64,000 bases of DNA from Tupaia tana (lineage: Eukaryota; Chordata; Mammalia; Scandentia; Tupaiidae), in contig JAKSZU010000032.1 in NCBI GenBank assembly GCA_026018925.1, positions 1,612,001 to 1,676,000 on the forward strand, given 5' to 3'. Positions 1 through 64,000 of this stretch are shown here, piece after piece. The notes below the pieces were generated by a model that saw nothing but the letters and a program-made list of their open reading frames with translations, did not search any database and was not told where the DNA came from. The position numbers and the translations under genes are program-made. Numbering within the stretch: the first letter of the stretch is position 1; every line of letters starts with the position of its first letter.

Positions 1-10
1 CCTAACCCTA

Positions 11-2698
11 GGCGGACACCTTAAGCTCATCACCAACCCTAACATGACCCTGACGCTATCTCCAACTGTAACACTTAACCGAAAACTAACAGTAGCCCTA
101 TAATTCCTCACTCAAACTAAGTTCAAACCTAACGTAACCTGAAGCCTAAATCAAACCATACACCTAACCCTAAACCTAGGCGGACACCTTATGCTTAACC
201 CCCACCCTAACCTGACCCTGACCCTAACTCCAACCGTAACAGTTAACCGAAAACTAACAGTAGACCTAAACATACTCCCTCAAACTAAGTTCAAACCTAA
301 CCTAACCTGAAGCCTAAATCAAACCATACACCTAACCCTAACCCTAGGCAGACACCTTAAGCTCAACCCCAACCGTAACCTGACCATCACGCTAACTCCA
401 ACCATAACACTGAACCGAAAACTAAGAGTAGCCCTAAACTTACTCCCTCAAACTAAGTTCAAACCTAACCTAACCTGAAGCCTAAATCAAACCATACACC
501 TAACCCTAACCCTAGGCGGACACCTTAAACTCAACCCCAACCCTAACCTGACCCGGACGCTAACTCGAACCATAAGAGTTAACCGAAAAATAGCAATAGC
601 CCTAAACTAACTCCCTCAAACTAAGTTCAAACCTCACCTAACCTGAAGCCTAAATCAAACCATACACCTAACCCTAATCGTAGGCGGACACCTGATGCTT
701 AACCCCCACTCTAACCTGACCCTGACCATAACTCCATCCGTAACAGTTAACCGAAAACTAACAGTAGACCTAAACTTAATCCGTCAAACTAAGTTCAAGC
801 CTAACCTAACCTGAAGCCGAAATCAAACCATACACCTAACCCTAACCGTAGGCGGACACCTTAAGCTCAACCCCAACCCTATCCTGACCCTGACCCTAAG
901 TCCAACCGTAACACTGAACCGAAAACTAACAGTAGCCCTAAACTTACTCCCTCAAACTAAGTTCAAACCTAATCTAACCTGAAGCCTAAATCAAACCATA
1001 CACTTAACCCTAACCCTAGGCGGACACCTTAAGCTCAACCCCAACCCTATCCTGACCCTGACGCTTACTCCATCCGTAACACAGAACCGAAAACTAACAG
1101 TAGCCCTAAACGTACTCCCTCAAACTAAGTTCAAACCTAACCTAACCTGAAGCCTAACTCAAACCATAAAACTGACCCTAACTCTAGGCGGACACCTGAT
1201 GCTCAACCCCAACCCTATCCTGACCCTGACGATAACTCCACCCGTAACACTGAACCGAAAAATAACAGCAGCCCTAAACTTACTCCCTCAAACTAAGTTC
1301 AAACTTAACCTAACCTGAAGCCTAAATCAAACCATTCACCTAACCCTAAACCTAAGCGGACACCTTATGCTTAACCCCCACCCTAACCTGACCCTGACCC
1401 TAAATCCAGCCGTAACAGTTAACCGAAAACTAACAGTAGACCTAAACTTACCCCCTCAAACTAAGTTCAAACCTAACCTAACCTGAAGCCTAAATCAAAC
1501 CATACACCAAACTCTAACCGTAGGCGGACACCTTAAGCTCAACCCCTACAATACCCACACCCTCACGATAACTCCAACCGTAACACTGAACCGAAAAATA
1601 ACAGTAGGTCTAAACTTACTCACTCAAACTAAGTTCAAACGTAACCTAACCTGAAGCCTAACTCAAACCATAGACCTAACCCTAACCCTAGGCGGAAACC
1701 TTAAGCTCAACTCCAACCCTAACGTGACCCTCACGCTAACTCCAACCGTAACACTAAACCAATAACTTACAGTAGCCCTGAACGTACTCCCTCAAAGTAA
1801 GTTCAAACCTAACCTAACCTGAAGCCTAACTCAAACCACAGACCTAACCCTATCCCTAGGCGGACACCATAAGCTCAACAAGAACCCTAAAATGACCCTG
1901 ACGCTATCTCCAACCGTAACACTTAACCGAAAACTAACAGAAGCCCTAAACTTCCTCACTCAAACTAAGTTCAAACCTAACCTAACCTGAAGCCTAAATC
2001 AAACCATACACCTAACCCTAACCCTAGCCGGACACCTTAAGCTCAACACCAACCCTAACATGACCCTGACGCTATCTCCAACCGTAACACTTAACCGAAA
2101 ACTAACAGTAGCCCTAAACTTCCTCACTCAAACTAAGTTCAAACCTAACCTAACCTGAAGCCTAAATCAAACCATACACCTAAACCTAACCATAGGCGGA
2201 CATCTTAAGCTCAACCCAAAAACTAACCTAACCCTCACGCTAACTCCAACCGTCACACTGAACCGAAAACTAACAGTAGCCCTAAAATAATTCCCTAAAA
2301 CTAAGTTCAAACCTAACCTAACCTGAAGCCTAAATCAAACCATACACCTAACCCTAACCCTAGGGGGACACCTTAAGCTCAACCCCAACCCTAACCTGAC
2401 CCTCACGCTAACTCCAACAATAACACTGAACCGAAAACTAACAGTAGCACTAAACTTACTCCCTCAAACTAAGTTCAAACCTATCCTAACCGGAAGCCTA
2501 ACTCAAACCATAGACATAACCCTAACCCTAGGCGGACACCTTAAGCTCAACTCCAACCATAACCTGACCCTCACGCTAACTCCAACCGTAACACTTAACC
2601 AATAAATAACAGTAGCCCTGAACTTACTCCCTCAAACTAAGTTAAAACCTAACCTAAGTTGAAGCCTAACTCAAACCACAGACCTAACCCTAACTCTG
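11..2698 (+). repeat. Higher-order repeat unit 1 (16 monomers, 2,688 bp)
   Basis: Sixteen monomers start at 11, 179, 347 and so on to 2531 with no net indel. Each has private marks that recur in the next units: a (11, 'gctcatcacc'), b (179, 'ttatgcttaa'), c (347, 'ggcagacacc'), d (515, 'acccggacgc'), e (683, 'tgatgcttaa'), f (851, 'ccctaagtcc'), g (1019, 'cttactccatcc'), h (1187, 'tgatgctcaa'), i (1355, 'aaatccagcc'), j (1523, 'tacaataccc'), k (1691, 'cctaacgtga'), l (1859, 'caacaagaac'), l' (2027, 'gccggacacc'), m (2195, 'catcttaagc'), n (2363, 'gggggacacc') and o (2531, 'aaccataacc'). Against later units it has the extra monomer l' and lacks x. Its f monomer ends with x-type sequence. Confidence 0.9.
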
Positions 2699-5386
2699 GG
2701 CGGACACCTTAAGCTCATCACCAACCCTAACATGACCCTGACGCTATCTCCAACCGTAACACTTAACCGAAAACTAACAGTAGCCCTATAATTCCTCACT
2801 CAAACTAAGTTCAAACCTAACGTAACCTGAAGCCTAAATCAAACCATACACCTAACCCTAAACCTAGGCGGACACCTTATGCTTAACCCCCACCCTAACC
2901 TGACCCTGACCCTAACTCCAACCGTAAAAGTTAACCGAAAACTAACAGTAGACCTAAACATACTCCCTCAAACTAAGTTCAAACCTAACCTAACCTGAAG
3001 CCTAAATCAAACCATACACCTAACCCTAACCCTAGGCAGACACCTTAAGCTCAACCCCAACCGTAACCTGACCATCACGCTAACTCCAACCATAACACTG
3101 AACCGAAAACTAAGAGTAGCCCTAAACTTACTCCCTCAAACTAAGTTCAAACCTAACCTAACCTGAAGCCTAAATCAAACCATACACCTAACCCTAACCC
3201 TAGGCGGACACCTTAAACTCAACCCCAACCCTAACCTGACCCGGACGCTAACTCGAACCATAAGAGTTAACCGAAAAATAGCAATAGCCCTAAACTAACT
3301 CCCTCAAACTAAGTTCAAACCTCACCTAACCTGAAGCCTAAATCAAACCATACACCTAACCCTAATCGTAGGCGGACACCTGATGCTTAACCCCCACCCT
3401 AACCTGACCCTGACCATAACTCCATCCGTAACAGTTAACCGAAAACTAACAGTAGACCTAAACTTAATCCGTCAAACTAAGTTCAAGCCTAACCTAACCT
3501 GAAGCCGAAATCAAACCATACACCTAACCCTAACCGTAGGCGGACACCTTAAGCTCAACCCCAACCCTATCCTGACCCTGACCCTAAGTCCAACCGTAAC
3601 ACTGAACCGAAAACTAACAGTAGCCCTAAACTTACTCCCTCAAACTAAGTTCAAACCTAACCTAACCTGAAGCCTAAATCAAACCTTACACCTAACCCTA
3701 ACCCTAGGCGGACAATTTAGACTCAACCCCAACTCTACCATGACCCTGACGCTAACTCGAACCGTAACAGTTAACCGAAAACTAACAGTAGCCCTAAACT
3801 TACTCCCTCAAACTAAGTTCAAACCTAATCTAACCTGAAGCCTAAATCAAACCATACACCTAACCCTAACCCTAGGCGGACACCTTAAGCTCAACCCCAA
3901 CGCTATCGTGACCCTGACGCTTACTCCATCCGTAACACAGAACCGAAAACTAACAGTAGCCCTAAACGTACTCCCTCAAACTAAGTTCAAACCTAACCTA
4001 ACCTGAAGCCTAACTCAAACCATAAACCTGACCCTAACTCTAGGCGGACACCTGATGCTCAACCCCAACCCTATCCTGACCCTGACGATAACTCCAACCG
4101 TAACACTGAACCGAAAAATAACAGCAGCCCTAAACTTACTCCCTCAAACTAAGTTCAAACTTAACCTAACCTGAAGCCTAAATCAAACCATTCACCTAAC
4201 CCTAAACCTAGGCGGACACCTTATGCTTAACCCCCACCCTAACCTGACTCTGACCCTAAATCCAGCCGTAACAGTTAACCGAAAACTAACAGTAGACCTA
4301 AACTTACCCCCTCAAATTAAGTTCAAACCTAACCTAACCTGAAGCCTAAATCAAACCATACACCAAACTCTAACCGTAGGCGGACACCTTAAGCTCAACC
4401 CCTACAATACCCACACCCTCACGTTAACTCCAACCGTAACACTGAACCGAAAAATAACAGTAGGTCTAAACTTACTCACTCAAACTAAGTTCAAACGTAA
4501 CCTAACCTGAAGCATAACTCAAACCATAGACCTAACCCTAACCCTAGGCGGACACCTTAAGCTCAACTCCAACCCTAACGTGACCCTCACGCTAACTCCA
4601 ACCGTAACACTAAACCAATAACTAACAGTAGCCCTGAACTTACTCTCTCAAAGTAAGTTCAAACCTAACCTAACCTGAAGCCTAACTCAAACCACAGACC
4701 TAACCCTATCCCTAGGCGGACACCATAAGCTCAACAAGAACCCTAAAATGACCCTGACGCTATCTCCAACCGTAACACTTAACCGAAAACTAACAGAAGC
4801 CCTAAACTTCCTCACTCAAACTAAGTTCAAACCTAACCTAACCTGAAGCCTAAATCAAACCATACACCTAAACCTAACCCTAGGCGGACATCTTAAGCTC
4901 AACCAAATAACTAACCTAACCCTCACGCTAACTCCAACCGTCACACTGAACCGAAAACTAACAGTAGCCCTAAAATAATTCCCTAAAACTAAGTTCAAAC
5001 CTAACCTAACCTGAAGCCTAAATCAAACCATACACCTAACCCTAACCCTAGGGGGACACCTTAAGCTCAACCCCAACCCTAACCTGACCCTCACACTAAC
5101 TCCAACAATAACACTGAACCGAAAACTAACAGTAGCACTAAACTTACTCCCTCAAACTAAGTTCAAACCTATCCTAACCGGAAGCCTAACTCAAACCATA
5201 GACATAACCCTAACCCTAGGCGGACACCTTAAGCTCAACTCCAACCATAACCTGACCCTCACGCTAACTCCAACCGTAACACTTAACCGATAAATAACAG
5301 TAGCCCTGAACTTACTCCCTCAAACTAAGTTAAAACCTAACCTAAGTTGAAGCCTAACTCAAACCACAGACCTAACCCTAACCCTA
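2699..5386 (+). repeat. Higher-order repeat unit 2 (16 monomers, 2,688 bp)
   Basis: This unit has the order a-b-c-d-e-f-x-g-h-i-j-k-l-m-n-o, aligning with unit 1 at an offset of 2,688 bp. Monomer x (3707, 'gacaatttagac') is present between f and g, while l' of unit 1 is absent, so the total stays at 16. Most shared monomers differ from unit 1 by only a few bases each by eye, far less than neighbouring monomers differ from one another. That is the hallmark of a higher-order repeat. Confidence 0.9.
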
Positions 5387-8074
5387 GGCGGACACCTTAA
5401 GCTCATCACCAAACCTAACATGACCCTGACGCTATCTCCAACCGTAACACTTAACCGAAAACTAACAGTAGCCCTATAATTCCTCACTCAAACTAAGTTC
5501 AAACCTAACGTAACCTGAAGCCTAAATCAAACCATACACCTAACCCTAAACCTAGGCGGACACCTTATGCTTAACCCCGACCCTAACCTGACCCTGACCC
5601 TAACTCCAACCATAACAGTTAACCGAAAACTAACAGTAGACCTAAACATACTCCCTCAAACTAAGTTCAAACCTAACCTAACCTGAAGCCTAAATCAAAC
5701 CATACACCTAACCCTAACCCTAGGCAGACACCTTAAGCTCAACCCCAACCGTAACCTGACCATCACGCTAACTCCAACCATAACACTGAACCGAAAACTA
5801 AGAGTAGCCCTAAACTTACTCCCTCAAACTAAGTTCAAACCTAACCTAACCTGAAGCCTAAATCAAACCATACACCTAACCCTAACCCTAGGCGGACACC
5901 TTAAACTCAACCCCAACCCTATCCTGACCCGGACGCTAACTCGAACCATAAGAGTTAACCGAAAAATAGCAATAGCCCTAAACTAACTCCCTCAAACTAA
6001 GTTCAAACCTCACCTAACCTGAAGCCTAAATCAAACCATACTCCTAACCCTAACCGTATGCGGACACCTGATGCTTAACACCCACCCTAACCTGACCCTG
6101 ACCATAACTCCATCCGTAACAGTTAACCGAAAACTAACAGTGGACCTAAACTTAATCCGTCAAACTAAGTTCAAGCCTAACCTAACCTGAAGCCGAAATC
6201 AAACCATACACCTAACCCTAACCGTAGGCGGACACCTTAAGCTCAACCCCAACCCTATCCTGACCCTGACCCTAAGTCCAACCGTAACACTGAACCGAAA
6301 ACTAACAGTAGCCCTAAACTTACTCCCTCAAACTAAGTTCAAACCTAACCTAACCTGAAGCCTAAATCAAACCTTACACCTAACCCTAACCCTAGGCGGA
6401 CAATTTAAACTCAACCCCAACTCTACCGTGACCCTGACGCTAACTCGAACCGTAACAGTTAACCGAAAACTAACAGTAGCCCTAAACTTACTCCCTCAAA
6501 CTAAGTTCAAACCTAATCTAACCTGAAGCCTAAATCAAACCATACACTTAACCCTAACCCTAGGCGGACATCTTAAGCTCAACCCCAACCCTAACCTGAC
6601 CCTGACGCTAACTCCAACCGTAACACTGAATTGAAAACTAACAGTAGCCCTAAACTTACTCCCTCAAACTAAGTTCAAACGTAACCTAACCTGAAGCCTA
6701 AATCAAACCATACACCTAACCCTAACCCTAGGCGGACACCTTAAGCTCAACCCCAACCCGCACCTGACCATGACGCTTACTCCATCCGTAACACAGAACC
6801 GAAAACTAACAGTAGCCCTAAACGTACTCCCTCAAACTAAGTTCAAACCTAACCTAACCTGAAGCCTAACTCAAACCATAAACCTGACCCTAACTCTAGG
6901 CGGACACCTGATGCTCAACCCCAACCCTATCCTGACCCTGACGATAACTCCAACCGTAACACTGAACCGAAAAATAACAGCAGCCCTAAACTTACTCCCT
7001 CAAACTAAGTTCAAACTTAACCTAACCTGAAGCCTAAATCAAACCATTCACCTAACCCTAAACCTAGGCGGACACCTTATGCTTAACCCCCACCCTAACC
7101 TGACTCTGACCCTAAATCCAGCCGTAACAGTTAACCGAAAACTAACAGTAGACCTAAACTTACCCCCTCAAACTAAGTTCAAACCTAACCTAACCTGAAG
7201 CCTAAATCAAACCATACACCAAACTCTAACCGTAGGCGGACACCTTAAGCTCAACCCCTACAATACCCACACCCTCACGATAACTCCAACCGTAACACTG
7301 AACCGAAAAATAACAGTAGGTCTAAACTTACTCACTCAAACTAAGTTCAAACGTAACCTAACCTGAAGCATAACTCAAACCATAGACCTAACCCTAACCC
7401 TAGGCGGACACCTTAAGCTCAACTCCAACCCTAACGTGACCCTCACGCTAACTCCAACCGTAACACTAAACCAATAACTAACAGTAGCCCTGAACTTACT
7501 CCCTCAAAGTAAGTTCAAACCTAACCTAACCTGAAGCCTAACTCAAACCACAGACCTAACCCTATCCCTAGGCGGACACCATAAGCTCAACAAGAACCCT
7601 AAAATGACCCTGACGCTATCTCCAACCGTAACACTTAACCGAAAACTAACAGAAGCCCTAAACTTCCTCACTCAAACTAAGTTCAAACCTAACCTAACCT
7701 GAAGCCTAAATCAAACCATACACCTAAACCTAACCCTAGGCGGACATCTTAAGCTCAACCAAATAACTAACCTAACCCTCACGCTAACTCCAACCGTCAC
7801 ACTGAACCGAAAACTAACAGTAGCCCTAAAATAATTCCCTAAAACTAAGTTCAAACCTAACCTAATCTGAAGCCTAAATCAAACCATACACCTAACCCTA
7901 ACCCTAGGCGGACACCTTAAGCTCAACTCCAACCATAACCTGACCCTCACGCTAACTCCAACCGTAACACTTAACCGATAAATAACAGTAGCCCTGAACT
8001 TACTCCCTCAAACTAAGTTAAAACCTAACCTAAGTTGAAGCCTAACTCAAACCACATACCTAACCCTAACTCTA
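5387..8074 (+). repeat. Higher-order repeat unit 3 (16 monomers, 2,688 bp)
   Basis: This unit has the order a-b-c-d-e-f-x-y-g-h-i-j-k-l-m-o. It keeps x (6395) and adds y (6563, marked by 'ctgaattgaaaac'), but lacks n ('ccaacaataac') between m (7739) and o (7907). Its length is again exactly 16 monomers. Starts were checked on 'ggcgg' or variants at 5387, 5723, 6227, 6563, 6899, 7235, 7571, 7907 and 8075. Confidence 0.9.
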
Positions 8075-11000
8075 GGCGGACAACTTAAGCTCATCACCAA
8101 CCCTAACATGACCCTGACGCTATCTCCAACCGTAACACTTAACCGAAAACTAACAGTAGCCCTATAATTCCTCACTCAAACTAAGTTCAAACCTAACGTA
8201 ACCTGAAGCCTAAATCAAACCATACACCTAACCCTAAACCTAGGCGGACACCTTATGCTTAACCCCCACCCTAACCTGACCCTGACCCTAACTCCAACCG
8301 TAACAGTTAACCGAAAACTAACAGTAGACCTAAACATACTCCCTCAAACTAAGTTCAAACCTAACCTAACCTGAAGCCTAAATCAAACCATACACCTAAC
8401 CCTAATCCTAGGCAGACACCTTAAGCTCAACCCCAACCGTAACCTGACCATTACACTAACTCCAACCATAACACTGAACCGAAAACTAAGAGTAGCCCTA
8501 AACTTACTCCCTCAAACTAAGTTCAAACCTAACCTAACCTGAAGCCTAAATCAAACCATACACCTAACCCTAACCCTAGGCGGACACCTTAAACTCAACC
8601 CCAACCCTAACCTGACCCGGACGCTAACTCGAACCATAAGAGTTAACCGAAAAATAGCAATAGCCCTAAACTAACTCCCTCAAACTAAGTTCAAACCTCA
8701 CCTAACCTGAAGCCTAAATCAAACCATACACCTAACCCTAACCGTAGGCGGACACCTGATGCTTAACACCGACCCTAAGCTGACCCTGACCATAACTCCA
8801 TCCGTAACAGTTAACCGAAAACTAACAGTAGACCTAAACTTAATCCGTCAAACTAAGTTCAAGCCTAACCTAACCTGAAGCCGAAATCAAACCATACACC
8901 TAACCCTAACCGTAGGCGGACACCTTAAGCTCAACCCCAACCCTATCCTGACCCTGACCCTAAGTCCAACCGTAACACTGAACCGAAAACTAACAGTAGC
9001 CCTAAACTTACTCCCTCAAACTAAGTTCAAACCTAACCTAACCTGAAGCCTAAATCAAACCTTACACCTAACCCTAACCCTAGGCGGACAATTTAAACTC
9101 AACCCCAACTCTACCGTGACCCTGACGCTAACTCGAACCGTAACAGTTAACCGAAAACTAACAGTAGCCCTAAACTTACTCCCTCAAACTAAGTTCAAAC
9201 CTAATCTAACCTGAAGCCTATATGAAACCATACACATAACCCTAACCCTAGGCGGACATCTTAAGCTCAACCCCAACCCTAACCTGACCCTGACGCTAAC
9301 TCCAACCGTAACACTGAATTGAAAACTAACAGTAGCCCTAAACTTACTCCCTCAAACTAAGTTCAAACGTAACCTAACCTGAAGCCTAAATCAAACCATA
9401 CACCTAACCCTAACCCTAGGCGGACACCTTAAGCTCAACCCCAACCCGAACCTGACCCTGACGCTTACTCCATCTGTAACACAGAACCGAAAACTAACAG
9501 TAGCCCTAAACGTACTCCCTCAAACTAAGTTCAAACCTAACCTAACCTGAAGCCTAACTCAAACCATAAACCTGACCCTAACTCTAGGCGGACACCTGAT
9601 GCTCAACCCCAAACCTATCCTGACCCTGACGATAACTCCAACCGTAACACTGAACCGAAAAATAACAGCAGCCCTAAACTTACTCCCTCAAACTAAGTTC
9701 AAACCTAATCTAACCTGAAGGCTAAATCAAACCATACACCTAATCCTAACCCTAGGCGGACACCTTAAGCTCAACTCCAACCATAACCTGACCCTCACGC
9801 TAACTCAAACCGTAACACTTAACCGATAAATAACAGTAGCCCTGAACTTACTCCCTCAAACTAAGTTCAAACCTAACCTAGCCTGAAGCCTAAATCAAAC
9901 CATACATCTAACCCTAACCCTAGGCGCACAATTTAAACTCAACCCCAACACTACCCTGACCCTGACGCGAACTCAAACCGTAACAGTTAACCGAAAACTA
10001 ACAGTAGAAATAAACTTACTCCCTCAAACTAAGTTCAAACCTAACCTAACCTGAAGCCTAAATCAAACCATACACTTAACCCTAACCGTAGGCGGACACC
10101 TTAAGCTCAACTCCAACCCTAACCAGACCCTGATTCTAATCCAACCGTAACACTGAACCGAAAACTAACAGTAGCCCTAAACTTATTCCCTCAAACTAAG
10201 TTCAAACGTAACCTAACCTGAAGCCTAACTCAAACCATAGACCTAACCCTAACCCTAGGCGGACACCTTAAGCTCATCACCAACCCTAAAATGACCCTGA
10301 CGCTATCTCCAACCATAACACTTAACCGAAAACTAACAGTAGCCCTAAAATTCCTCACTCAAACTAAGTTCAAACCTAACGTAACCAGAAGCCTAAATCA
10401 AACCATACACCTAACCCTAACCCTAGGCGGACATCTTAAGCTCAACCCCATCCCTAACCAAACCCTCACGCTAACTCCAACCGTCACACTGATCCAAAAA
10501 CTAATAGTAGCCCTAAAATTACTCCCTCAAACTAAGTTCAAACCTAACGTAACCTGAAGCCTAACTCAAACCATAGACCTAACCCTAACCCTAGGCGGAC
10601 ACCTTAAACTCAACTCCAACCCTAACCTGACCCTCATGCTAACTCCAACCGTAACACTAAACCGATAACTAACAGTAGCCCTGAACTTACTCCCTCAAAC
10701 TAAGTTCAAACCTAACCTAACCTGAAGACGAACTCAAACCATAGACCTAAGCCTAACCCTAGGCGTACACCTTAAGCTAAACTCCAACCCTAACCTGACC
10801 CTCACGCTACCTCCAACAGTAACACTGAACCGAAAACTAACAGTACCCTAAACTTACTCACTCAAACTAAGTTCAAACGTAACCTAACCTGAAGCCTAAA
10901 TCAAACCATAGACCTAACCCTAAACCTCGGCGGACACCTTATGCTTAACCCCCACCCTAAACTGTACCTGAACCTAACTCCAACCGTAACAGTTAACCGA

Positions 11001-13784: not shown

Positions 13785-14456
13785 GGCGGACAACTTAAGC
13801 TCAACCCCAACCCTAACCTGACTCAGACCATAACTCTTTCCGTAACACTGAACCGAAAACTAACAGTAGCCCTCAACTTACTCACTCAAACTAAGTTCAA
13901 ACCTAACCTAACCTGAAGCCTAAATGAAACCATAGACATAACCCTAACCCTAGAGGGACACCTTAAGTTCGACCCCAACCCTAACCTGACCCTCACACTA
14001 ACTCCAACAATAACACAGAACCGAAAACTAACAGTAGCCCTAAACTTACTCCCTCAAACTAAGTTCAAACCTATCCTATCCGGAAGCCTAACTCAAACCA
14101 TAGATATAACCCTAACCCTAGGCGGACACCTTAAGCTAAACTCCAAACATAACCTGACCCTCACGCTAACTCCAACCGTAACACTTAACCGATAAATAAC
14201 AGTAGCCCTGAACTTACTCCCTCAAACTAAGTTAAAACCTAACCTAAGTTGAAGCCTAACTCAAACCACATACCTAACCCTAACTCTAGGCGGACAACTT
14301 AAGCTCATCACCAACCCTAACATGACCCTGACGCTATCTCCAACCGTAACACTTAACCGAAAACTAACAGTAGCCCTATAATTCCTCACTCAAACTAAGT
14401 TCAAACCTAACGTAACCTGAAGCCTAAATCAAACCATACACCTAACCCTAAACCTA
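13617..14456 (+). repeat. Five-monomer cassette, occurrence 1
   Basis: The order is a monomer with 'acctcggcgg' and 'ttaagcttaa' (13617), one with 'gactcagacc' (13785), an n-type with 'gttcgacccc' (13953), an o-type with 'ccgataaataac' (14121), and an a-type with 'gctcatcacc' (14289). The same order and spacing occurs at 22181 (offset 8,564) and at 32741. The n-o-a part also occurs at 2363, 5051 and 31064. Confidence 0.8.
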
Positions 14457-15968: not shown

Positions 15969-15998
15969 GGCGGACACCTTAAGCTCAACTCCAACCAT

Positions 15999-23860: not shown

Positions 23861-25036
23861 GGTGGACAATTTAAACTCAACCCCAACCGTACCCTGACCC
23901 TGACGCTAACTCGAACCGTAACACTGAACCGAAAACTAACAATAGCCCTAAACTTACTCCCTCAAACTAAGTTCAAACCTAACCTAACCTGAAGCCGAAA
24001 TCAAACCATACACCTAACCCTAACACTAGGCGGACATCTTAAGCTCAACCCCAACCCTAACCTGACCCTCACGCTAACTCCAAACATAACACTGAACCGA
24101 AAACTAACAGTAGCCCTAAACTTACTCACACAAACTAAGTTCAAACGTAACCTAACCTGAAGCCTAACTCAAACCATAGACTTAACCCTAACCCTAAGCG
24201 GACACCTTAAGCTCAACCCCAACCCTAACCTGACCCTGACGCTATCTCCAACCGTAACACTGAACCGAAAACTAACAGTAGCCCTAAACTTACTCCCTCA
24301 AACTAAGTTCAAACCTAACCTAACCTGAAGACTAACTCAAACCATAGACCTAACCCTAACCCTAGGCGGACACCTGAAGCTCAACCCCAACCCTAACCTG
24401 ACCCTGAAGCTATGTCCAACCGTAACACTGAACCGAAAACTAACAGTAGGCTTAAACTTACTCCCTCAAACTAATTTCATACCTAACCTAACCTGATGCC
24501 TAAATCAAACGATAAACCTAACCTTAACCCTAGGGGGACACCTTAAGCTCAACCCCAACCCTAACCTGACCCTCACGCTAACTCCAAACATAACACTGAA
24601 CCGAAAACTAACAGTAGCCCTAAACTTACTCCCTCAAACTAAGTTCAAACCTAACCTAACCTGAAGCCTAAATCAAACCATACACCTGAACCTAACCCTA
24701 GGCGGACACCTTAAACTCAACCCCAACAGTAACCTGAACCTGACGCTAACTCGAACAGTAACAGTTAAACAAAAACTAAAAATAGCCCTAAACTTACTCT
24801 GTCAAACTAAGTCCAAACCTAACCTAATCTGAAGCCTAAATCAAACCATACAATTAACCCTAAACCTAGGGTGACACCTTAAGCTCAACCCCAACCCTAA
24901 CCTTACACTCACGATAACTCCAACCTTAACACTGAACCGAAAACTAACAGTAGTCCTAAACTTACTCCCTCAAACTAAGTTTAAACCTAACCTAACCTGA
25001 AGCCTAAATCAAACCATACACCTAACCCTAACCCTA
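23861..25036 (+). repeat. Seven-monomer block, copy 1 (period about 2.17 kb)
   Basis: This block starts with 'ggtggacaattt' (23861) and includes monomers marked 'ctgaagctatgtcc', 'ccaaacataac' and 'gggtgacacc' (24869). The same order recurs at 26033, 2,172 bp away. That is 13 monomers minus 12 bp, the 12 bp coming from the two 162-bp monomers between the copies (25037 and 25367). Confidence 0.85.
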
Positions 25037-25198
25037 GGCGGACACCTTAAACTCAACCCCAACCCTACCCTGACGCTAACGCGAAACGTAACAGTTAACC
25101 GAAAAATAACTGTAGCCCTAAACTTACTCTCTCAAACTAAGTTCAAACCTCACCTAACCTGAAGCCTAAATCAAACCATAAACCTAACCCTAACCCTA
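25037..25198 (+). repeat. 162-bp monomer lacking one hexamer (1 of 5)
   Basis: The distance to the next landmark is 162 bp. In 'aaccctaccctgacgctaac', one CCCTGA/CCTGAC-type hexamer present in normal monomers ('ccctgaccctgacgc') is missing. The loss is exactly one 6-bp unit. Sister monomers with the same deletion lie at 25367, 29224, 35429 and 38614. Confidence 0.9.
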
Positions 25199-25366
25199 GG
25201 GGGACACCTTAAGCTCAACCCCAACCCTAACCTGACCCTCACGCTAACTCCAACCATAACACTGAACCGAAAACTAACAGTAGCCCTAAACTTACTCCCT
25301 CTAACTAAGTTTAAACCTAACCTAACCTGAAGCCTAAATCAAACCATACACCTAACCCTAACCCTA

Positions 25367-25528
25367 GGCGGACACCTTAAACTCAACCCCAACCCTACCC
25401 TGACGCTAACGCGAAACGTAACAGTTAACCGAAAAATAACTGTAGCCCTAAACTTACTCTCTCAAACTAAGTTCAAACCTCACCTAACCTGAAGCCTAAA
25501 TCAAACCATACACCTAACCCTAACCCTA
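25367..25528 (+). repeat. 162-bp monomer lacking one hexamer (2 of 5)
   Basis: It carries the same hexamer loss and the same private marks ('gctaacgcgaaac', 'aaataactgtag') as the monomer at 25037, only 330 bp away. The two are a local duplicate. Confidence 0.9.
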
Positions 25529-26032
25529 GGGGGACACCTTAATCTCAACCCCAACCCTAACGTGACCCTCACGCTAACACCAACCGTAACAGTTAATCGA
25601 AAACTAACAGTAGCCCTAAACTTATTCCTGAAAACTAAGTTCAAACCTAACCTTACCTGAAGCCTAAATCAAACCATACACCTAACCCTTACCCTAGGCG
25701 GGCACCTTAAGCTCAACCCCAACCCTAACCTGACGCTCACGCTAACTCCAACCGTAACACTGAACCGAAAATTAACAGTAGCCCTAAACTTACTCCCTCA
25801 AACTAAGTTCAAACCTAACCTAACCTGGAGCCTAACTCAAACCATAGACCTAACCCTAACCCTAGGCGGACACCTTAAGCTCAACCGCAACCCTAACCTT
25901 ACCCTGACCCTAACTCCAACTGTAACACTGAACCGAAAACTAACAGTAGCCCTAAACTTACTCCCTCAAACTAAGTTCAAACATAACCTAACCTGAAGCC
26001 TAAATCAAACCATACACCTAATCATAACCCTA

Positions 26033-28047: not shown

Positions 28048-29223
28048 GGCGGACAATTTAAACTCAACCCCAACCCTACCCTGACCTTGACGCTAACTCG
28101 AACCGTAACACTGAAACGAAAACTAACAATACCCCTAAACTTACTCCCTCAAACTAAGTTCAAACCTAACCTAACCTGAAGCCTAAATCAAACCATACAC
28201 CTAACCCTGACCCTAGGCGGGCACCTTAAGCTCAACCCCAACCCTAACCTGACCCTCACGCTAACTCCAACCGTAACACTGAACCGAAAATTAACAGTAG
28301 CCCTAAACTTACTCCCTCAAACTAAGTTCAAACCTAACCTAACCTGGAGCCTAACTCAAACCATAGACCTAACCCTAACCCTAGGCGGACACCTTAAGCT
28401 CAACCGCAACCCTAACCTGACCCTGACCCTAACTCCAACTGTAACACTGAACCGAAAACTAACAGTAGCCCTAAACTTACTCCCTCAAACTAAGTTCAAA
28501 CGTAACCTAACCTGAAGCCTAAATCAAACCATACACCTAATCATAACCCTAGGTGGACAATTTAAACTCAACCCCAAACCTACCCTGACCCTGACGCTAA
28601 CTCGAACCATAACACTGAACCGAAAACTAACAATAGCCCTAAACTTACTCCCTCAAACTAAGTTCAAACCTAACCTAACCTGAAGCCTAAATCAAACCAT
28701 ACACCTAACCCTAACCCTAGGCGGACATCTTAAGCTCAACCCCAACCCTAACCTGACCCAGATACTAAATCCAACCGTAACACTGAAGCGAAAACTAACA
28801 GTAGCCCTAAACTTACTCCCTCAAACTAAGTTCAAACCTAACCTAACCTGAAGCCTAACTCAAACCATAGACCTAACCCTAACCCTAGGCGGACACCTTA
28901 AGCTCAACCCCAACCCTAACATGACCCTGACGCTATCTCCAAACGTAACACTGAACCGAAAAATAACAGTAGGCTTGAAGTTACTCCCTCAAACTAAGTT
29001 CAAACCTAACCTAACCTGATGCCTAAATCAAACCATAAACCTAACCCTAAGCCTAGGGGGACACCTTAAGCTCAACCCCAACCCTAACCTGACCCTCAGG
29101 CTAACTCCAAACATAACACTGAACCGAAAACTAACAGTAGCCCTAAACTTACTTCCTCTAACTAAGTTTAAACCTAACCTAACCTGAAGCCTAAATCAAA
29201 CCATACACCTAACCCTAACTCTA

Positions 29224-29385
29224 GGCGGACACCTTAAACTCAACCCCAACCCTACCCTGACGATAACGCGAAACGTAACAGTTAACCGAAAAATAACTTT
29301 AGCCCTAAACTTACTCTCTCAAATTAAGTTCAAACCTCACCTAACCTGAAGCCTAAATCAAACCATACACCTAACCCTAACCCTA
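29224..29385 (+). repeat. 162-bp monomer lacking one hexamer (3 of 5)
   Basis: It has the same deletion with a further change, 'gataacgcgaaac', and 'aaataactttag'. Its exact partner is at 38614, in the other copy of the 10-kb-offset duplication. Confidence 0.9.
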
Positions 29386-33580: not shown

Positions 33581-35428
33581 GGTGGACACCTTAAGCTCAA
33601 CTCCAACCATAACCTGACCCTCACATTAACTCCAACCGTAACACTTAACCGATAAATAACAGTAGCCCTGAACTTACTCCCTCAAACTAACTTCAAACCT
33701 AACCCAAACTGAAGCCTAACTCAAACCATTGACCTAACCCTAAACCTAGGCGGACACCTTATGCTTAACCCCCACCCTAACCTGACCCTGACGCTAACTC
33801 GAACCGTAACAGTTAACCGAAAAATAGCAGTAGCCCTAAACTTAATCCCTCAAAATAAGTTCAAACCTCACCTAACCTGAAGCCTAAATCAAACCATACA
33901 CCTAACCCTAAACCTCGGCGGACACCTTATGCTTAACCCCCACCCTAAACTGACCCTGACCGTAACTCCAACCGTAACAGTTAACTGAAAACTAACAGTA
34001 GACCTAAACTAATACCCTCAAACTAAGTTCAAACCTAACCTAACCTGAAGCCTAAATCAAACCATACACCTAACACTAACCCTAGGCGGACTCCTTAAGC
34101 TCAACCCCAACCCTAACCTGACCCTGACCCTAACTCCTTCCGTAACACTGAACCGAAAACTAACAGAAGCCCTCACCTTACTCACTCAAACTAAGTTCAA
34201 ACCTAACCTAACCGGAAGCCTAACTCAAACCCTAGACATAACCCTAACCCTAGGCGGACACCTTAAGCTCATCACCAACCCTAACATGACCCTGACGATA
34301 TCTCCAACCGTAACACTTAACCGAAAACTAACAGTAGCCCTAAAATTCCTCACTCAAACTAAGTTCAAACCTAACGTAACCTGACGTCTAAATCAAACCA
34401 TACACATAACCCTAACCCAAGGCGGACATCTTAAGCTCAACCCCATCCCTAACCTAACCCTCACGCTAACTCCAACCATAACACTGAACCGAAAACTAAC
34501 AGTAGCCCTAAACTTACTCACTCAAACTAAGTTCAAACGTAACATAACCTGAAGCCTAAATTAAACCATAGACCTAACCCTAACCCTAGGGGGAAACTTT
34601 ATGCTTCACCCCCACCATAACCTGACCCTAACGCTTACTCCAACCGTAACAGTTAACCGAAAACTAACAGTAGCCCTAAACTTACTCCCTCAAACTAAGT
34701 TCAAACCTAACCTAACCTGAAGCCTAAATCAAACCATACAAATAACCCTAATCCTAGGCGGACACCTTAAGCTCATCCCCAACCCTAACCTTAACCTCAC
34801 GCTAACTCCAACCGTAACACTGAACCGAAAACTAACAGTAGCCCTAAACGTACTCCCTCAAACTAAGTTCAAACCTAACCTAACCTGAAGCCTAACTCAA
34901 ACCATAGACCTAACCCTAACCCTTGGAAGACACCTGAAGCTCAACCCCAACCCTAACCTGACCCTGACGCTATCCCCAACCGTAACACTGAACCTAAAAC
35001 TAACAGTAGGCTTAAACTTATTCCCTCAAACTAAGTTCAAACCTAACCTAACCTGAAGCCTAAATCAAACCATAAACCTAACCCTAACCCTAGGGAGACA
35101 CCTTAAGCTCAACCCCAACCCTAACCTGACCCTCACGCTAACTCCAACCATAACACTGAACCGAAAACTAACAGTAGCCCTAAACTTAGTCCCTCTAACT
35201 AAGTTTAAACCTAACCTAACCTGAAGCCTAAATCAAACCATACACCTAACCCTAACCCTAGGCGGATACCTTAAACTGAACCCCGACCCTACCCTGACCC
35301 TGACGCTAACTCGAACCGTAACAGTTAACCGAAAAATAACAGTTGACCTAAACTTACTCCCTCAAACTAAGTTCAAACCTCACCTAACCTGAACCCTAAA
35401 TCAAACCATACAACTAACCCTAACCCTA
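33581..35428 (+). repeat. Ordinary satellite monomers
   Basis: These are eleven monomers of mixed type, including b-like (33749, 'ttatgcttaa'), 'acctcggcgg' (about 33917), a-like (34253, 'gctcatcacc') and 'ggagacacc' types. I recognised no long-range copy with constant offset here, so this looks like an older or more reshuffled stretch. It has no gene or unique DNA. Confidence 0.75.
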
Positions 35429-35590
35429 GACGGACAATTTAAACTCAACCCCAACACTACCCTGACGCTAATGCGAAACGTAACAGTTAACCGAAAAATA
35501 ACTGTAGCCCTAAACTTACTCTCTCAAACTAAGTTCAAACCTCACCTAACCTGAAGCCTAAATCAAACCATACACCTAACCCTAATCCTA
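35429..35590 (+). repeat. 162-bp monomer lacking one hexamer (4 of 5)
   Basis: It has the same deletion with 'gctaatgcgaaac' and starts with 'gacggacaattt'. It lies 10,062 bp downstream of the one at 25367 and opens copy 2 of duplication B. Confidence 0.9.
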
Positions 35591-38500: not shown

Positions 38501-38613
38501 ACATAACACTGAACCGAAAACTAACAGTAGCCCTAAACTTACTCCCTCTAACTAAGTTTAAACCTAACCTAACCTGAAGCCTAAATCAAACCATACACCT
38601 AACCCTAACCCTA

Positions 38614-38775
38614 GGCGGACACCTTAAACTCAACCCCAACCCTACCCTGACGATAACGCGAAACGTAACAGTTAACCGAAAAATAACTTTAGCCCTAAAC
38701 TTACTCTCTCAAACTAAGTTCAAACCTCACCTAACCTGAAGCCTAAATCAAACCATACACCTAACCCTAACCCTA
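38614..38775 (+). repeat. 162-bp monomer lacking one hexamer (5 of 5)
   Basis: It is the partner of 29224 at an offset of 9,390 bp, sharing 'gataacgcgaaac' and 'aaataactttag'. Confidence 0.9.
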
Positions 38776-56300: not shown

Positions 56301-56439
56301 CCGAAAACGAACAGAAGGCTTAAACTTACTCCCTCAAAATAAGTTCAAACCTGACCTAACCTGATGCCTAAATGAAACCATAAACCTAACCCTAATCCTA
56401 GGGGGACACCTTAAGCTCAACCCCAACCCTAACCTGACC
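53344..56439 (+). repeat. Satellite monomers with scattered relatives
   Basis: About eighteen monomers. The first ('accttaccactg') matches the end of block C. The piece 53885-54700 matches 45827-46600, and 55228-55900 matches 48515-49190. Small deletions occur near 55000 ('aaactagttcaaac') and 56270 ('cctaagcaccctg'). No gene was seen. Confidence 0.75.
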
Positions 56440-57519
56440 CTGACGCTATCTCCAACCGTAACACTGAACCGAAAACTAACAGTAGGCTTAAACTTACTCC
56501 CTCAAACTAAGTTCAAACCTAACCTAACGTGAAGCCTAAATCAAACGTTAAACCTAACCCTAACCCTAGGGGGACACCTTAAACTCAACCCCAATCCTAA
56601 GCGGACCCTCATGATAACTCCAACCATAACACTGAACCGAAAAATAACAGTAGCCCTAAACTTACTCCCTCAAACTAAGTTCAAACCTAACCTAACCTGA
56701 AGCCTAAATCAAACCATACACCTGAACCTAACCCTAGGCGGACACCTTAAACTCAAACCCAACCCTAACCTGACCCTGACGCTATCTCCAACCGTAACAC
56801 TGAACCGAAAACTAAGAGTAGCTCTAAACTTACTCACAGAAACTAAGTTCAAACGTAACCTATCTTGAAGCCTAACTCAAACCACAGACCTAACCCTAAC
56901 CCTAGGCGGACACCTTAATCTCAACCCCAACCCTAACCTGACCCTGACGCTAACTCCAACTGTAACACTGAATCGAAAACTAACAGTAGGCCTAAACTTA
57001 CTCACTCAAACTAAGTTCAAAGGTAACCTAACCTGAAGCCTAAATCAAACCATAGACCTAACCCTAACCCTAGGCAGACACCTTATGCTTAACCCTCACC
57101 CTAACCTGACCCTGACGCTTACTCCAACCGTAACAGTTAACCGAAAACTAACAGTAGCCCTAAACTTACTCCCGAATACTAAGTTCAAACCTAACCTAAC
57201 CTGAAGCCTAAATCAAACCATACACCTAACCCCAACCCTAGGCGGACACCTTAGGCTCAACCCCACCCCTAACCTGACCCTCACGCTAACTCCAACCATA
57301 ACACTGAAGCCAAAACTAACAGTAGCCCTAAACTTACTCCCTCAAACTAAGTTCAAACCTAACATAACCTGGAGCCTAAATCAAACCATACACCTGAACC
57401 TAACCCTGGGCGGACACCTTAAACTAAACCCCAACCCTACCCTGACCCTGACGCTAACTCGAACCGTAACAGTTAACCGAAAACTAACAATAGCCCTAAA
57501 CTTACTCTCTCAAACTAAG
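56440..57519 (+). repeat. Block D, copy 2
   Basis: This is the homologue of 43680-44760 with the same ordered private marks, including 'agctctaaac' at 56820 and 'actgaagccaaaac' near 57300. The two copies differ by scattered single-base changes. Confidence 0.82.
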
Positions 57520-60500
57520 TTCAAACCTAACCTAACCTGAAGCCTAAATCAAACCATACACCTAACCCTAACCCTAGGGGGACACCTTAAGCTCAACCCC
57601 AACCCTAACCTTTCCCTCACGCTAACTCCAACCGTAACACTGAACCGAAAACTAACAATAGCCCTAAACTTACTCCCTCAAACTAAGTTCAAACCTAACC
57701 TAACCTGAAGCCTAACTCAAACCATAGACCTAACCCTAACCCTAGGCGGACACCTTCAGCTCTACCCCAAACCTAACCTGACCCTCACGCTAACTCCAAC
57801 CGTAACGCAGACCCGAAAACTAAGAGTAGACCTAAACATACTCACTAAAACTAAGTTCAAACCTAATCTAACCTGAAGCCTAAGTCAAACCATACACATA
57901 ATCCTAACCCTAGGTGAACATCTATAGCTCAACCACAACACTAACCTGACCCTGACACTAACTCCAACAGTAACACTGATACGAAAATTAACAGTAGCCC
58001 TAAATTTACTACCTCAAACTAAGTTCAAACCTAACCTGACCTGAAGCCTAACTCAACCATAGACCTAACCCTAACCCTAGGCGGACACCTTAAGCTAAAC
58101 TCCAACCCTAACCTGACCCTCACGCTAACCCCAACCGTAACACTGAACCGAAAACTAACAGTAGCCCTAAATTTACTCACTCAAACTAAGTTCAAACGTA
58201 ACCTAACCTGAAGCCTAAATCAAACCATAGACCTAACCCTAACCCTAGGCGGACACTTTATGCTTAACCCTCACCATAACCTGACCCTAACGCTTACTCC
58301 AACCGTAACAGTTAAATGAAAACTAACAGTAGCCCTAAACTTACTCCCTCAAACTAAATTCAAACCTAACCTAACCTGAAGCCTAAATCAAACCATACAC
58401 CTAACCCTAACCCTAGGGGGACACCTTAAGCTCAACCCCAAAACTAACCTGACCCTCACGCTAACTCCAACCATAACACTGAACCCAAAACTAACAGTAG
58501 CCCTAAACTTACTCCCTCAAACTAAGTTCAAACCTAACCTAACCTGAAGCCTAAATCAAACCATACACCTGAACCTAACCCTAGGCGGACACCTTAAACT
58601 CAACCCCAACCCTAACCTGACCCTGAGGCTATCTCCAACCGTAACACTGAACCGAAAACTAACAGTAGCCATAAAATTACTCACTCAAACTAAGTTCAAA
58701 CGTAAACTAACCTGAAGCTTAACTGAAACCATAGACCTAACCCTAACCCTAGGCGGACACCTTAAGCTCAACTCCAACCCTAACCTGACCCTCACGCTAA
58801 CTCCACCCGTAACACTGAACCGAAAAGTAACAGTAGCCCTAAACTTACTCACTCAAACTAAGTTCAAACCTAACCTAACCTGAAGCCTAACTCAAACCAT
58901 AGAGCTAACCCTAACCCTAGGCAGACACCTGAAGCTCAATCCCAACCCTAACCTGACCCTGACGCTATCTCCAACCGTAACACTGAACCGAAAACTAACA
59001 GTAGCCCTAAACTTACTCCCTCAAACTAAGTTCAAACCTAACCTAACCTGAAGCCTAAATCAAACCATACACCTGAACCTAACCCTAGGCGGACACCTGA
59101 AGCTCAACCCCAACCCTAACCTGACCCTGACGCTATCTCCAACCGTAACACTGAACCAAAAACTAACAGTAGCCCTAAAATTACTCACTCAAACTAAGTT
59201 CAAACCTAACCTAACCTGAAGCCTAACTCAAACCATAGACCTAACCCTAACCCTAGGCGGACACCTTAAGCTAAACTCCAACCCTAACCTGACCCTCACG
59301 CTAACTCCAACAGTAACTCTGAACCGAAAACTAACAGTAGACCTAAACTTACTCACTCAAACTAAGTTCAAACGTAACCTAACCTGAAACCTTAATCAAA
59401 CCATATACCTAACCCTAACCCTAGGTGGACACTTTATGCTTAACCCCCACCATAAAATGACCCTAACGCTTACACCAACCGTAACAGTTAACCGAAAACT
59501 AACAGTAGACCTAAACTTACTCCCTCAAACTAAATTCAAACCTAACCTAACCTGAAGCCTAAATCAGACCATAGACCTAACCCTAACCCTAGGGGGACAC
59601 CTTAAGCACCACCCCAAACCTAACCTGACCCTCATGCTAACTCCAACCATAACACTGAACCAAAAACTAACAGTAGACCTAAACTTACTCCCTCTAACTA
59701 AGTTTAAACCTAACCTAACCTGAAGCCTAAATCAAACCATACACCGAACCCTAACCCTAGGCGGACACCTTAAACTCAACCCCAACCCTACCCTGACCCT
59801 GACGCTAACTCGAAACGTAACAGTTAACCGAAAATAACAGTAGCCCTAAACTTAATCCCTCAAACTAAGTTCAAACCTCACCTAACCTGAAGCCTAAATC
59901 AAACCATACACCTAACCCTAACCCTAGGGGGACACCTGAAGCTCAACCACAACCCTAACCTGACCCTCACGCTAACTCCAACCGTAACAGTTAATCGAAA
60001 ACTAACAGTAGCCCTAAACTTATTCCCGAAAACTAAGTTCAAACCTAACCTAACCTGAAGCCTAAATCAAACCATACACCTAATCCTAACCCTAGGCGAA
60101 CATCTTAAGCTCAACCACAACACTAACCTGACCCTGACACTAACTCCAACCGTAACACTGAACCGAAAACTAACAGTAGCCCTAAACTTACTCCCTCAAA
60201 CTAAGTTCAAACCTAACCTAACCTGAAGCATAACTCAAACCATAGACCTAACCCTAACCCTAGGCTGACACCTTAAGCTCAAACCCAACCCTAACCTGAC
60301 CCTGACCCTAACTCCAACCGTAACACTGAACCGAAAACTAACAGTAGCCCTAAACTTACTCCCTCAAACTAAGTTCAAACGTAACCTAACCTGAGGCCTA
60401 AATCAAACCATACACCTAATCATAACCCTAGGCGGACAATTTAAACTCAACCCCAACCCTACCCTGACCCTGACGCTAACTCAAACCGTAACACTGAACC

Positions 60501-63500
60501 GAAAACTAACAATAGCCCTAAACTTACTCCCTCAAACTAAGTTCAAACCTAACCTAACCTGAAGCCTAAATCAAACCACACACCTAACCCTAAACCTAGG
60601 CGAACATCTTAAGCTCAACCCCAACCCTAACCTGACCCAGATGCTAAATCCAACCGTAACACTGAACCGAAAAATAACAGTAGCCCTAAACTTACTTCCT
60701 CAAACTAAGATCAAACCTAACCTAACCTGAAGCCTAACTCAAACCATAGACCTAACTCTAAACCTAGGCGGACACCTGAAGCTCAACCCCAACCCTAACC
60801 TGACCCTGACGCTATCTCCAAACGTAACACTGAACCGAAAAATAACAGTAGGCTTAAACTTACTCCCTCAAACTAAGTTCAAACCTAACCTAACCTGATG
60901 CCTAAATCAAACCATAAACCTAACCCTAACCCTAGGGAGACACCTTAAGCTCAACCCCAACCCTAACCTGACCCTCATGTTAACTCCAACCATAACACTG
61001 AACCGAAAACTAACAGTAGCCCTAAACTTACTCCCTCTAACTAAGTTTAAACCTAACCTAACCTGAAGCCTAAATCAAACCATAAACCTAACCCTAACCC
61101 TAGGTGGACACTTTAAACTCAACCCCATTCCTACCCTGACCATGACGCTAACTCGAAACGTAACAGTTAACCGAAAAATAACAGTAGCCCTAAACTTACT
61201 CTCTCAAACTAAGTTCAAACCTCACCTAACCTGAAGCCTAAATCAAACCATATACCTAACCCTGACTCTAGGCGGGCACCTTAAGCCCAACCCCAACCCT
61301 AACCTGACCCTACCCCTAACTCCAACCATAACTCTGAACCGAAAACTAACAGTAGACCTAAACACACAGCCTCAAACTAAGTTCAAACCTAATCTAACCT
61401 GAAGCCTAAATCAAACCATACACCGAATCCTAACCCTAGGTGAACATCTTAAGCTCAACCACAATACTAACCTGACCCTGACACTAACTCCAACCGTAAC
61501 ACTGAACCGAAAATTAACAGTAGCCCTAAACTTACACCCTCAAACTAAGTTCAAACCTAACCTAACCTGAAGCCTAAATCAAACCATACACCTAACCCTA
61601 ACCCTAGGCGGACATCTTTAGCTCAACCCCAACCCAAACCTGACCGAGATGCTAACTCCAACCATAACACTGAACCGAAAACTAACAGTAGCCCTAAACT
61701 TACTCCCTCAAACTAAGTTCAAACCTAACCTATCCTGAAGCCTAACTCAAACCATAGACCTAACCCTAACCCTAGGCGGACACCTGAAGCTCAACCCCAA
61801 CCCTAACCTGACCCTGACGCTATCTCCAACCGTAACACTGAACCGAAAACTAACAGTAGGCTTAAACTTACTCCCTCAAACTAAGTTCAAACCTAACCTA
61901 ACCTGATGCCTAAATCAAACCATAAACCTAACCCTAACCCTAGGGGGACACCTTAAGCTCAACCTCAACCCTAACCTGACCCTCACGCTAACTCCAAACA
62001 TAACACTGAACCGAAAACTAACAGTAGCCCTAAACTTACTCCCTCAAACTACGTTCAAACCTAACCTAACCTGAAGCCTAAATCCAACCATACACCTGAA
62101 CCTAACCCTAGGCGGACACCTTAAACTCAACCCCAACCCTACCCTGACCCTGACGCTAACTCGAACCGTAACAGTTAACCAAAAACTAACAGTAGCCCTA
62201 AACTTACTCTGTCAAACTAAGTCCAAACCTAACCTAACCTGAAGACTAAGTCAAACCATACACCTAACCCTAACCCTAGGGGGAAACCTTAAGCTCAACC
62301 ATAACCCTAACCTTACCCTCACGCTAACTCCAACCGTAACACTGAACCGAAAACTAACAGTAGCCCTAAACTTACTCCTTCAAACTAAGTTCAAACCTAA
62401 CCTAACCCGAAGCCTAACTCAAACCATAGACCTAACCCTAACCCTAGGCGGACACCTGAAGCTCAACACCAACCCTAACCTGACCCTGACGCTATCTCCA
62501 ACCGTAACACTGAACCGAAAACTAACAGTAGCCCTAAACTTACTCACACAAACTAAGTTCAAACATAACCTAACCTGAAGCCTAACTCAAACCATAGACT
62601 TAACCCTAACCCTAGGCGGACACCTTAAGCTCAACCCCAACCCTAACCTGACCCTGACGCTAACTCCAAACGTAACACTGAATCGAAAACTAACAGTAGC
62701 CCTAAACTTACTCACTCAATCAAAGTTCAAAGGTAACCTAACCTGAAGCCTAAATCAAACCATAGACCTAACCCTAACCCTAGGCGGACACCTTATGCTT
62801 AACCCCCACCCTAACCTGACCCTGACCCTAACTCCAACCATAACACTGAACCGAAAACTAACAGTAGCCCTAAACTTACTCCCTCAAACTATGTTCAAAC
62901 CTAATCTAACCTGAAGCCTAAATCAAACCATACACCTGAACGTAACCCTAGGCGGACACCTGAAGCTCAACCCCAACCCTAACCTGACCCTGACGCTATC
63001 TCCATCCGTAACACTGAACCGAAAACTAACAGTAGGCTTAAACTTACTCCCTCAAACTAAGTTCAAACCTAACCTAACCTGAAGCCTAAATCAAACCATA
63101 CACGTGAACCTAACCCTAGGCGGACACCTGAAGTTCAACCCCAACCCTAACCTGACCCTGACGCTATCTCCAAACGTAACACTGAACCGAAAACTAACAG
63201 TAGCCCTCAAATTACTCACTCAAACTAAGTTCAAATGTAATCTAACCTGAAGCTTAACTCAAACCATAGACCTAACCCTAACCCGAGGTGGACACCTTAA
63301 GCTCAACTCCAACCGTAACATGACCCTAACGCTAACTCCACCCGTAACACTGAACCGAAAACTCACAGTAGCCCTAAACTTACTCACTCAAACTAAGTTC
63401 TAACCTAACCTAACCTGAAGCCTATCTCAAACCATAGACCTAACCCTAACCCTACGCGGACACCTGAAGCTCAACCCCAACACTAACCTGACCCTGACGC

Positions 63501-64000
63501 TATCTCCAACCGTAACACTGAACCGAAAACTAACAGTAGGCTTAAACTTACTCCCTCAAACTAAGTTCAAACCTAACCTAACCTGAAGCCTAAATCAAAC
63601 CATAAACCTAACCCTAACCCTAGGGAGACACCTTAAGCTCAACCCAACCCTAACCTGACCCTCACGCTAACTCCAACCATAACACTGAACCGAAAACTAA
63701 CAGTAGCCCTAAACTTACTCCCTCAAACTAAGTTCAAACCTAACCTAACCTGAAGCCTAAATCAAACCATACACCTGAACCTAAACCTAGGCGGACACCT
63801 GAAGCTCAACTCCAACCCTAACCTGACCCTCACGCTAACTCCACCCGTAACACTGAACCGAAAACTAACAGTAGCCCTAAACTTACTCACTCAAACTAAG
63901 TTCAAACGTAACCTAACCTGAAGCCTAAATCAAACCATAGACCTAACCCTAACCCTTGGCGGACACTTTATGCTTAAACCCCACCATAACCTGACCCTAA
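57520..64000 (+). repeat. Satellite monomers to the window edge
   Basis: About 38 monomers, many with 'gtaggcttaaac' or the 'ctaactaagttta' mark seen near 23630, 25300, 35200 and 38550. I did not trace a constant-offset duplication through this part. The array is still in phase at 63958 and runs off the edge, so its true length exceeds 64 kb. Confidence 0.75.

Follow-up and report, generated by a model that had tools for sequence, protein, structure and literature searches.

A 168-bp satellite of Tupaia tana that probably descends stepwise from the telomere repeat through an 84-bp unit and its dimer

How does a telomere repeat turn into the bulk satellite of a genome? The question is raised by a stretch of 64,000 nucleotides of Tupaia tana (hereafter the window; C453:1612001-1676000, on a contig of 4,187,571 bp in a 2.95-Gb assembly) in which TRF recognizes, from position 1 to 63998, a single array of 381.3 copies of a 168-bp unit. 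Skews indicate that the + strand is C-rich, like the C-strand of telomeres, along the entire window. The original prediction held that a degenerate telomeric tract of 28 hexamers had been captured as one long unit and then massively amplified. Descent from telomeres and mass amplification are retained here, by way of intermediate arrays found in the same genome; the capture of one 28-hexamer tract is given up, as the monomer appears to be a dimer of a 14-hexamer unit. Judging from its sequence, the satellite, which we infer to be non-coding, very probably descends from TTAGGG repeats by steps that include an 84-bp unit, a dimer of 90 + 78 bp, nested changes and amplification. As a rule, the birth of a satellite family has to be guessed from its final consensus. 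The present genome seems to have preserved the telomere repeat, the 14-hexamer unit, the dimer, two later states and a family of ~64 Mb. Whether unit formation came before dimerisation, and dimerisation before amplification, thereby becomes testable on sequence, in a concrete case of a telomere repeat becoming bulk satellite.

The monomers of the window (n = 381) have a mean identity of 93.5% to their consensus. Most of them (339) are 168 bp long, the others being 167 bp (31), 162 bp (five), 169 bp (four) or 166 bp (two). Length variants had been said to come in hexamer steps, a point that proves weak. Five 162-bp monomers do exist (Table 1); they fit one common 6-bp deletion, with deletion counts of at least 5 in each of columns 41-46, and most of the 42 off-length monomers differ by 1 bp. 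A regular higher-order repeat across the whole window was considered and rejected, a clear one being found in the first 60 monomers only.

Table 1. Coordinates of the satellite features in the window and of related arrays elsewhere in the assembly
Feature	Position	Strand	Basis or remark
Satellite array, 168-bp unit, 381 monomers	1..64000	+	TRF, skews, monomer cutting
First monomer, 28 hexamers, read as two halves that have diverged: 1-90 (90 bp) and 91-168 (78 bp)	1..168	+	
Intact telomeric core CCTAACCCTAACCCTAGG (G-strand CCTAGGGTTAGGGTTAGG), across monomer junction	331..348	+	sequence
162-bp monomer (6-bp deletion)	25027..25188	+	monomer cutting
162-bp monomer (6-bp deletion)	25357..25518	+	monomer cutting
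162-bp monomer (6-bp deletion)	29214..29375	+	monomer cutting
162-bp monomer (6-bp deletion)	35419..35580	+	monomer cutting
162-bp monomer (6-bp deletion)	38604..38765	+	monomer cutting
Monomers 0-59, where local higher-order repetition (16 monomers, 2688 bp) is clearest	1..10080	+	
84-bp unit arrays	C320:11.41 Mb; C309:162.45 Mb		two loci, three pieces
168-bp dimer arrays	C275:24.39 Mb; C309:58.27 Mb; C231:31.83 Mb; C531:156.67 Mb; C253:37.44 Mb		five loci
L127	C309:212.458 Mb		
L128	C320:2.753 Mb		

The telomere likeness of the satellite is confirmed. In a consensus built from 322 pieces of exactly 168 bp (out of 396 pieces between 397 anchor matches), 106 of the 168 positions are those of (CCTAAC)28 in one register, exactly as first counted, and the expectation from base composition alone, once recomputed, agrees with the earlier value of ~56. 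Dinucleotide shuffles, each taken in its best register, give 65.1 ± 4.0 matches with a maximum of 86, none of 20,000 reaching 106. The 6-bp periodicity on which the prediction was to be checked is also present, with a self-match at lag 6 of 88/168 vs. 50.8 ± 6.1 in dinucleotide shuffles (0/20,000 reach it). Among shuffles that preserve trinucleotides, 0/5,000 reach 106 matches or the lag-6 value of 88; among those that preserve tetranucleotides, 0/5,000 reach 106 matches and 2/5,000 reach the lag-6 value. Closing the monomer into a circle and aligning it to the telomere repeat yields exactly 28 units, as anticipated from a length of 28 x 6; at each of three gap costs, the alignment counts 122 matches and 44 mismatches, plus two insertions and two deletions. 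The AT skew is 0.36 for the consensus vs. 0.33 for a pure telomere C-strand. Minor variants in the window show no lean to the telomere base (0.0195 vs. 0.0258 expected), and a C to A mutation signature (21/62 in the fixed register, only 12/44 with indels) was dropped. The divergence between satellite and telomere amounts to 0.33-0.51 substitutions per site. For simple decay of one telomere tract to reach this level, the usual mammalian rates would demand a very long time, and this route was set aside.

The monomer itself carries signs of a half-size unit. Its two insertions, at columns 17 and 107, are 90 bp apart, as are its two deletions, after columns 42 and 132. Its hexamer-lag self-match peaks at 78, which equals 90 on the circle (94/168; family-wise p 0.034 vs. 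a null preserving the hexamer profile). Derived substitutions common to both halves of the satellite show no excess (3 vs. 2.2, p 0.38). With no more than the satellite to go on, one could only suspect that a unit of half the size had come first.

A comparison of the satellite with interstitial telomeric tracts of the source genome, which the original prediction had called for, revealed related 84-bp and dimer arrays. Across the genome, 3,603 matches to imperfect telomere tracts were obtained; 12 places were taken among the 100 matches listed and three were extended. Eleven arrays were compared with the satellite, hexamer-block shuffles of each piece serving as control and one C309 piece being excluded. 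Under this control, the array at C275:24.39 Mb reaches z 8.4-14.3 in four pieces, that at C320:11.41 Mb z 3.5, 3.5 and 5.7 (-0.4 for the piece beyond the array) and that at C309:162.45 Mb z 4.4 and 1.6; six other degenerate telomere arrays range from -1.8 to 1.6. The array at C353:40.6 Mb gives z 5.3, but ordinary sequence in the piece lowers its null. When the decoys are hexamer-permuted satellites, z is 11.3 for C275, 5.7 and 4.4 for two others and 1.0-3.1 for six controls; the second piece of C309:162.45 Mb (z 2.9) falls within the control range.

The units of these arrays were then derived from segments of each array (first 1500-1700 bp) without use of the satellite. Among the eight non-satellite pieces, the best unit is 168 bp in five and 84 bp in three, the latter from two loci; in these three, a unit of 167-168 bp is nearly as good (956 vs. 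945, 1065 vs. 1039, 772 vs. 754). All dimer loci except that on C275 were picked via a 37-mer of the family, neither the 168-bp period nor the rest of the unit being imposed. This 37-mer has 463 matches genome-wide at ≤3 mismatches, and its best match in the window has 7 mismatches. The 84-bp unit is exactly 14 hexamers with one insertion and one deletion; the dimer is made of two such units, one half with one hexamer more and the other with one hexamer less, hence 90 + 78 bp. In one alignment, telomere matches are 147-150/160 for the doubled 84-bp unit, 140-150/166 for the dimers and 122/166 for the satellite. An outgroup homologue clearly unlike telomeres had been named as evidence against a telomeric origin; the homologues within this genome go the other way, being closer to the telomere repeat than the satellite is. 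Against the satellite, the dimers reach z 9.4-14.1, each above all of its 30 hexamer-permuted satellite decoys, and the doubled 84-bp unit reaches z 5.1-6.7, above the best of 30 such decoys. Six of the nine changes of the dimer beyond the 84-bp unit also occur in the satellite, and the two halves agree at 72/78 positions in the dimer consensus vs. 49/78 in the satellite. Identity of copies to their own consensus is 0.81-0.88 for the 84-bp arrays, 0.86-0.92 for the dimers and 0.94 for the satellite; copies thus tend to diverge more within arrays of the earlier forms, which fits a greater age.

Thirty-two columns separate the dimer consensus from the satellite. A 36-mer that combines dimer and satellite states has 10,218 matches at ≤3 mismatches, and two arrays inside large scaffolds, L127 and L128, were chosen among the 100 matches listed. 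In four dimer loci, the satellite state is the commoner one at none of the 32 columns (L124 and L126), at one (L113) or at two (L123); it is so at nine in L128, 14 in L127 and 30 in L050, a piece of the satellite. All nine satellite-state columns of L128 fall within the 14 of L127 (chance 7e-5). Outside the 36 searched columns, L128 has the satellite state at 7/25 columns and L127 at 11/25, and the seven of L128 are again all among the 11 of L127 (chance 7e-4). Both satellite-state columns of L123 are among the nine of L128 (chance 0.07). In L127, one state is close to fixation at many columns (11, 21 and 108 for that of the satellite; 12, 76 and 113 for that of the dimer), which is what a chronological intermediate should show. 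Several others, including 27, 46 and 121, hold mixed states, so exchange between repeat types is possible.

Combining these data, the following history can be proposed. A telomere tract would have given rise to a tandem unit of 14 hexamers, altered by about five substitutions, one inserted base and one deleted base, a stage seen as present-day arrays. Two 84-bp units would then have formed the 168-bp dimer, whose 90 + 78 bp structure is seen; an unequal exchange in hexamer register, by which one half gained a hexamer and the other lost one, may have been the cause. The passage from the dimer consensus to the satellite would have required 32 substitutions, partly in a nested order of which intermediate states are seen, and most satellite-specific substitutions would postdate dimerisation. 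The dimer would finally have been amplified and homogenised to an estimated ~64 Mb. This order is drawn from the comparison of consensus sequences within one genome.

The scale of the amplification can be approached with a 36-mer that has, at ≤2 mismatches, 330,757 matches genome-wide and 329 in the window; by scaling, the satellite would number ~383,000 copies or ~64 Mb, an estimated 2% of the assembly. It is present on many contigs and on several chromosome-size scaffolds. The consensus of six other array pieces (169 monomers) differs from that of the window at 1-3 columns, and that of a larger set drawn from 44 pieces (332 rows, of which some are partial) at one column. As 21 of these 44 pieces were placed on satellite matches and the others on contigs known to carry the satellite, this sample is biased to similar copies. 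An exact 140-bp stretch of the consensus occurs at 3 places only.

On C453, C1086 and C111, satellite blocks of either orientation occur, one of them internal to C111; these arrangements rule out a uniform telomere orientation of the blocks and argue against a purely terminal account. At one end of C608, a run of N separates the satellite from a pure TTAGGG tract that points the same way. On C453 (~3416515-3416988), three elements adjoin in this order: unique DNA, which we take to be LINE-like, a telomere tract and the satellite. The satellite starts at its telomeric core, and the same strand is G-rich throughout the junction. The tract contains 39 TTAGGG, 13 CTAGGG, 7 TCAGGG, 5 TTTAGGG and 1 TTGGGG, and its TCAGGG run is on the side away from the satellite. 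We infer that the satellite lies here beside a former chromosome end, or beside a telomere tract that was inserted, an assembly error being possible. Elsewhere on the same contig, around C453:1780001-1780400, the + strand of the satellite switches composition, being C-rich in the samples up to 1.76 Mb and G-rich from 1.80 Mb on; this piece holds a fragment that we assume to be a LINE-1-like reverse transcriptase, for which Pfam returned no match. The non-satellite DNA at C453:3400001-3400400 has an open frame of 57 aa, presumably PAIP2-like and perhaps a retrocopy, also without a match in Pfam.

Other origins have to be weighed against this stepwise descent. The resemblance might be convergent, the satellite being C/A-rich and hexameric by chance and without telomere kinship. 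Few hexamers can fit a strand rich in C and A, and CCTAAA (109 matches) even lies slightly above CCTAAC among all hexamers in the fixed register. Convergence is nonetheless extremely improbable: when indels are allowed, the telomere class ranks at the top of 700 hexamer classes (70 vs. 61 for the runner-up), the maximum score of 300 shuffles being 32 vs. 71 for the consensus, and the related dimer arrays are nearer to the pure telomere repeat. The capture of one degenerate 28-hexamer tract, amplified as a whole, would explain why 28 hexamers complete the monomer without remainder and agrees with the lack of excess of derived substitutions common to its halves. It appears very unlikely in view of arrays for which 84 bp is the best unit, of dimers with nearly identical halves and of the recurrence of both register shifts at 90 bp. 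It could also be that L127 and L128 are mosaics produced by gene conversion between dimer arrays and satellite rather than stages, as the mixed columns of L127 would suggest; the near fixation of other columns of L127 and the nesting of satellite-state columns between L128 and L127 make this explanation improbable.

A further proposal, compatible with descent, is that telomere-type sites were kept for use, TRF1 and TRF2 binding the satellite and favouring its spread or packaging. The window holds 721 copies of YTAGGGTTR, which we take to be the TRF-type half-site motif, vs. 28.2 ± 4.8 in 30 shuffles, a weak null once descent is granted; at least one is present in 367/381 monomers (1.9 per monomer on average), those of the telomeric core being at positions 165 and 3 of the monomer, and extrapolation gives ~725,000 genome-wide. 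The most conserved 18-bp stretch in the sample of other arrays is the telomeric core, but with a permutation p of 0.09, and in the window the most conserved stretch (columns 114-128 and neighbours, p 0.007-0.057 at four widths) is non-telomeric. A conserved protein-binding box was rejected, since p is 0.07-0.35 at five widths in the wider sample, where columns 114-128 are not the best. Mean conservation is 0.943 for telomere-matching columns vs. 0.923 for the others in the window (p 0.87) and 0.951 vs. 0.921 in the wider sample (p 0.40). As neither difference is significant, the likeness is read as ancestry and not as selected function, and retention for TRF1 and TRF2 seems unlikely. Only slightly less doubtful is the idea, suggested by the same motifs, that the satellite might load shelterin proteins and compete for them with true telomeres, thereby helping its spread; were this true, the block beside the telomere tract of C453 would be an array grown past an old chromosome end.

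Stepwise descent from telomeres, the preferred reading, can be set beside known systems. The repeat forms long tandem arrays of one unit in very high copy number, as satellite DNA does, and the shuffle controls, together with more telomere-like relatives in the same genome, place it among telomere-derived satellites. Its unit is near nucleosome length, as in centromeric satellites, a weak indication since this is common to many satellites. For a subtelomeric satellite, the signs diverge: the orientation agrees with that of the telomere tracts on C608 and C453, but blocks of both orientations occur and one of them is inside C111. Another mammalian satellite, the heavy satellite of baleen whales, holds TTAGGG-like sequence in a unit of ~422 bp; this length vs. 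168 bp here sets the two apart. In the open-access literature, neither a published series of such intermediates nor this satellite was found. Heterochromatic interstitial telomeric sequences (het-ITS), such as those of Chinese hamster, are reported to comprise much telomere-related repeat inside chromosomes, in degenerate blocks for which amplification has been proposed (PMC6410037). Large amounts of telomere-related repeat are thus common to het-ITS and to this satellite, but het-ITS are described as telomeric hexamers (PMC6410037), whereas the unit here is a 168-bp dimer, 122/166 telomeric, with intermediates kept. Since its unit is not the hexamer and it does not consist of blocks of TTAGGG, the satellite is not filed under het-ITS, though it is close to them. 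Variants of proximal human telomeres include TCAGGG, TGAGGG and TTGGGG (PMC3919612). Each of them occurs once in the satellite consensus (chance 0.048 if variants are equiprobable, a post hoc value). In the C453 tract, TCAGGG sits towards the unique DNA, which recalls the human proximal telomere; the human variants are hexamer runs at chromosome ends (PMC3919612), whereas the satellite is a long fixed unit found in many places.

Several other repeats were encountered in this genome. The four arrays L107, L109, L116 and L118, which served as controls, are degenerate telomere arrays with 82-86% identity to the pure telomere repeat. Three more (L114 on C245, L111 on C264 and L110 at C353:40603601-40604800) are degenerate telomere arrays with a period of 31 bp, which is not a multiple of six and stands out most in L114 (0.74 self-match at lag 31); they may represent another repeat of telomeric origin. 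Near one end of C508 (L048) and at C309:734401-735600 (L108) lies a GC-rich tandem repeat of a different kind, ~200 bp long, with short intact CCCTAA runs and the motif TTTGACC two or three times per unit. The left ends of C608 (L054) and C220 (L068) share the same other tandem repeat, which is not telomere-like. Finally, cytochrome b and globin exons mark the genome as mammalian; the cytochrome b family has 21 matches genome-wide, of which the one on C1198 looks mitochondrial and the others may be nuclear copies.
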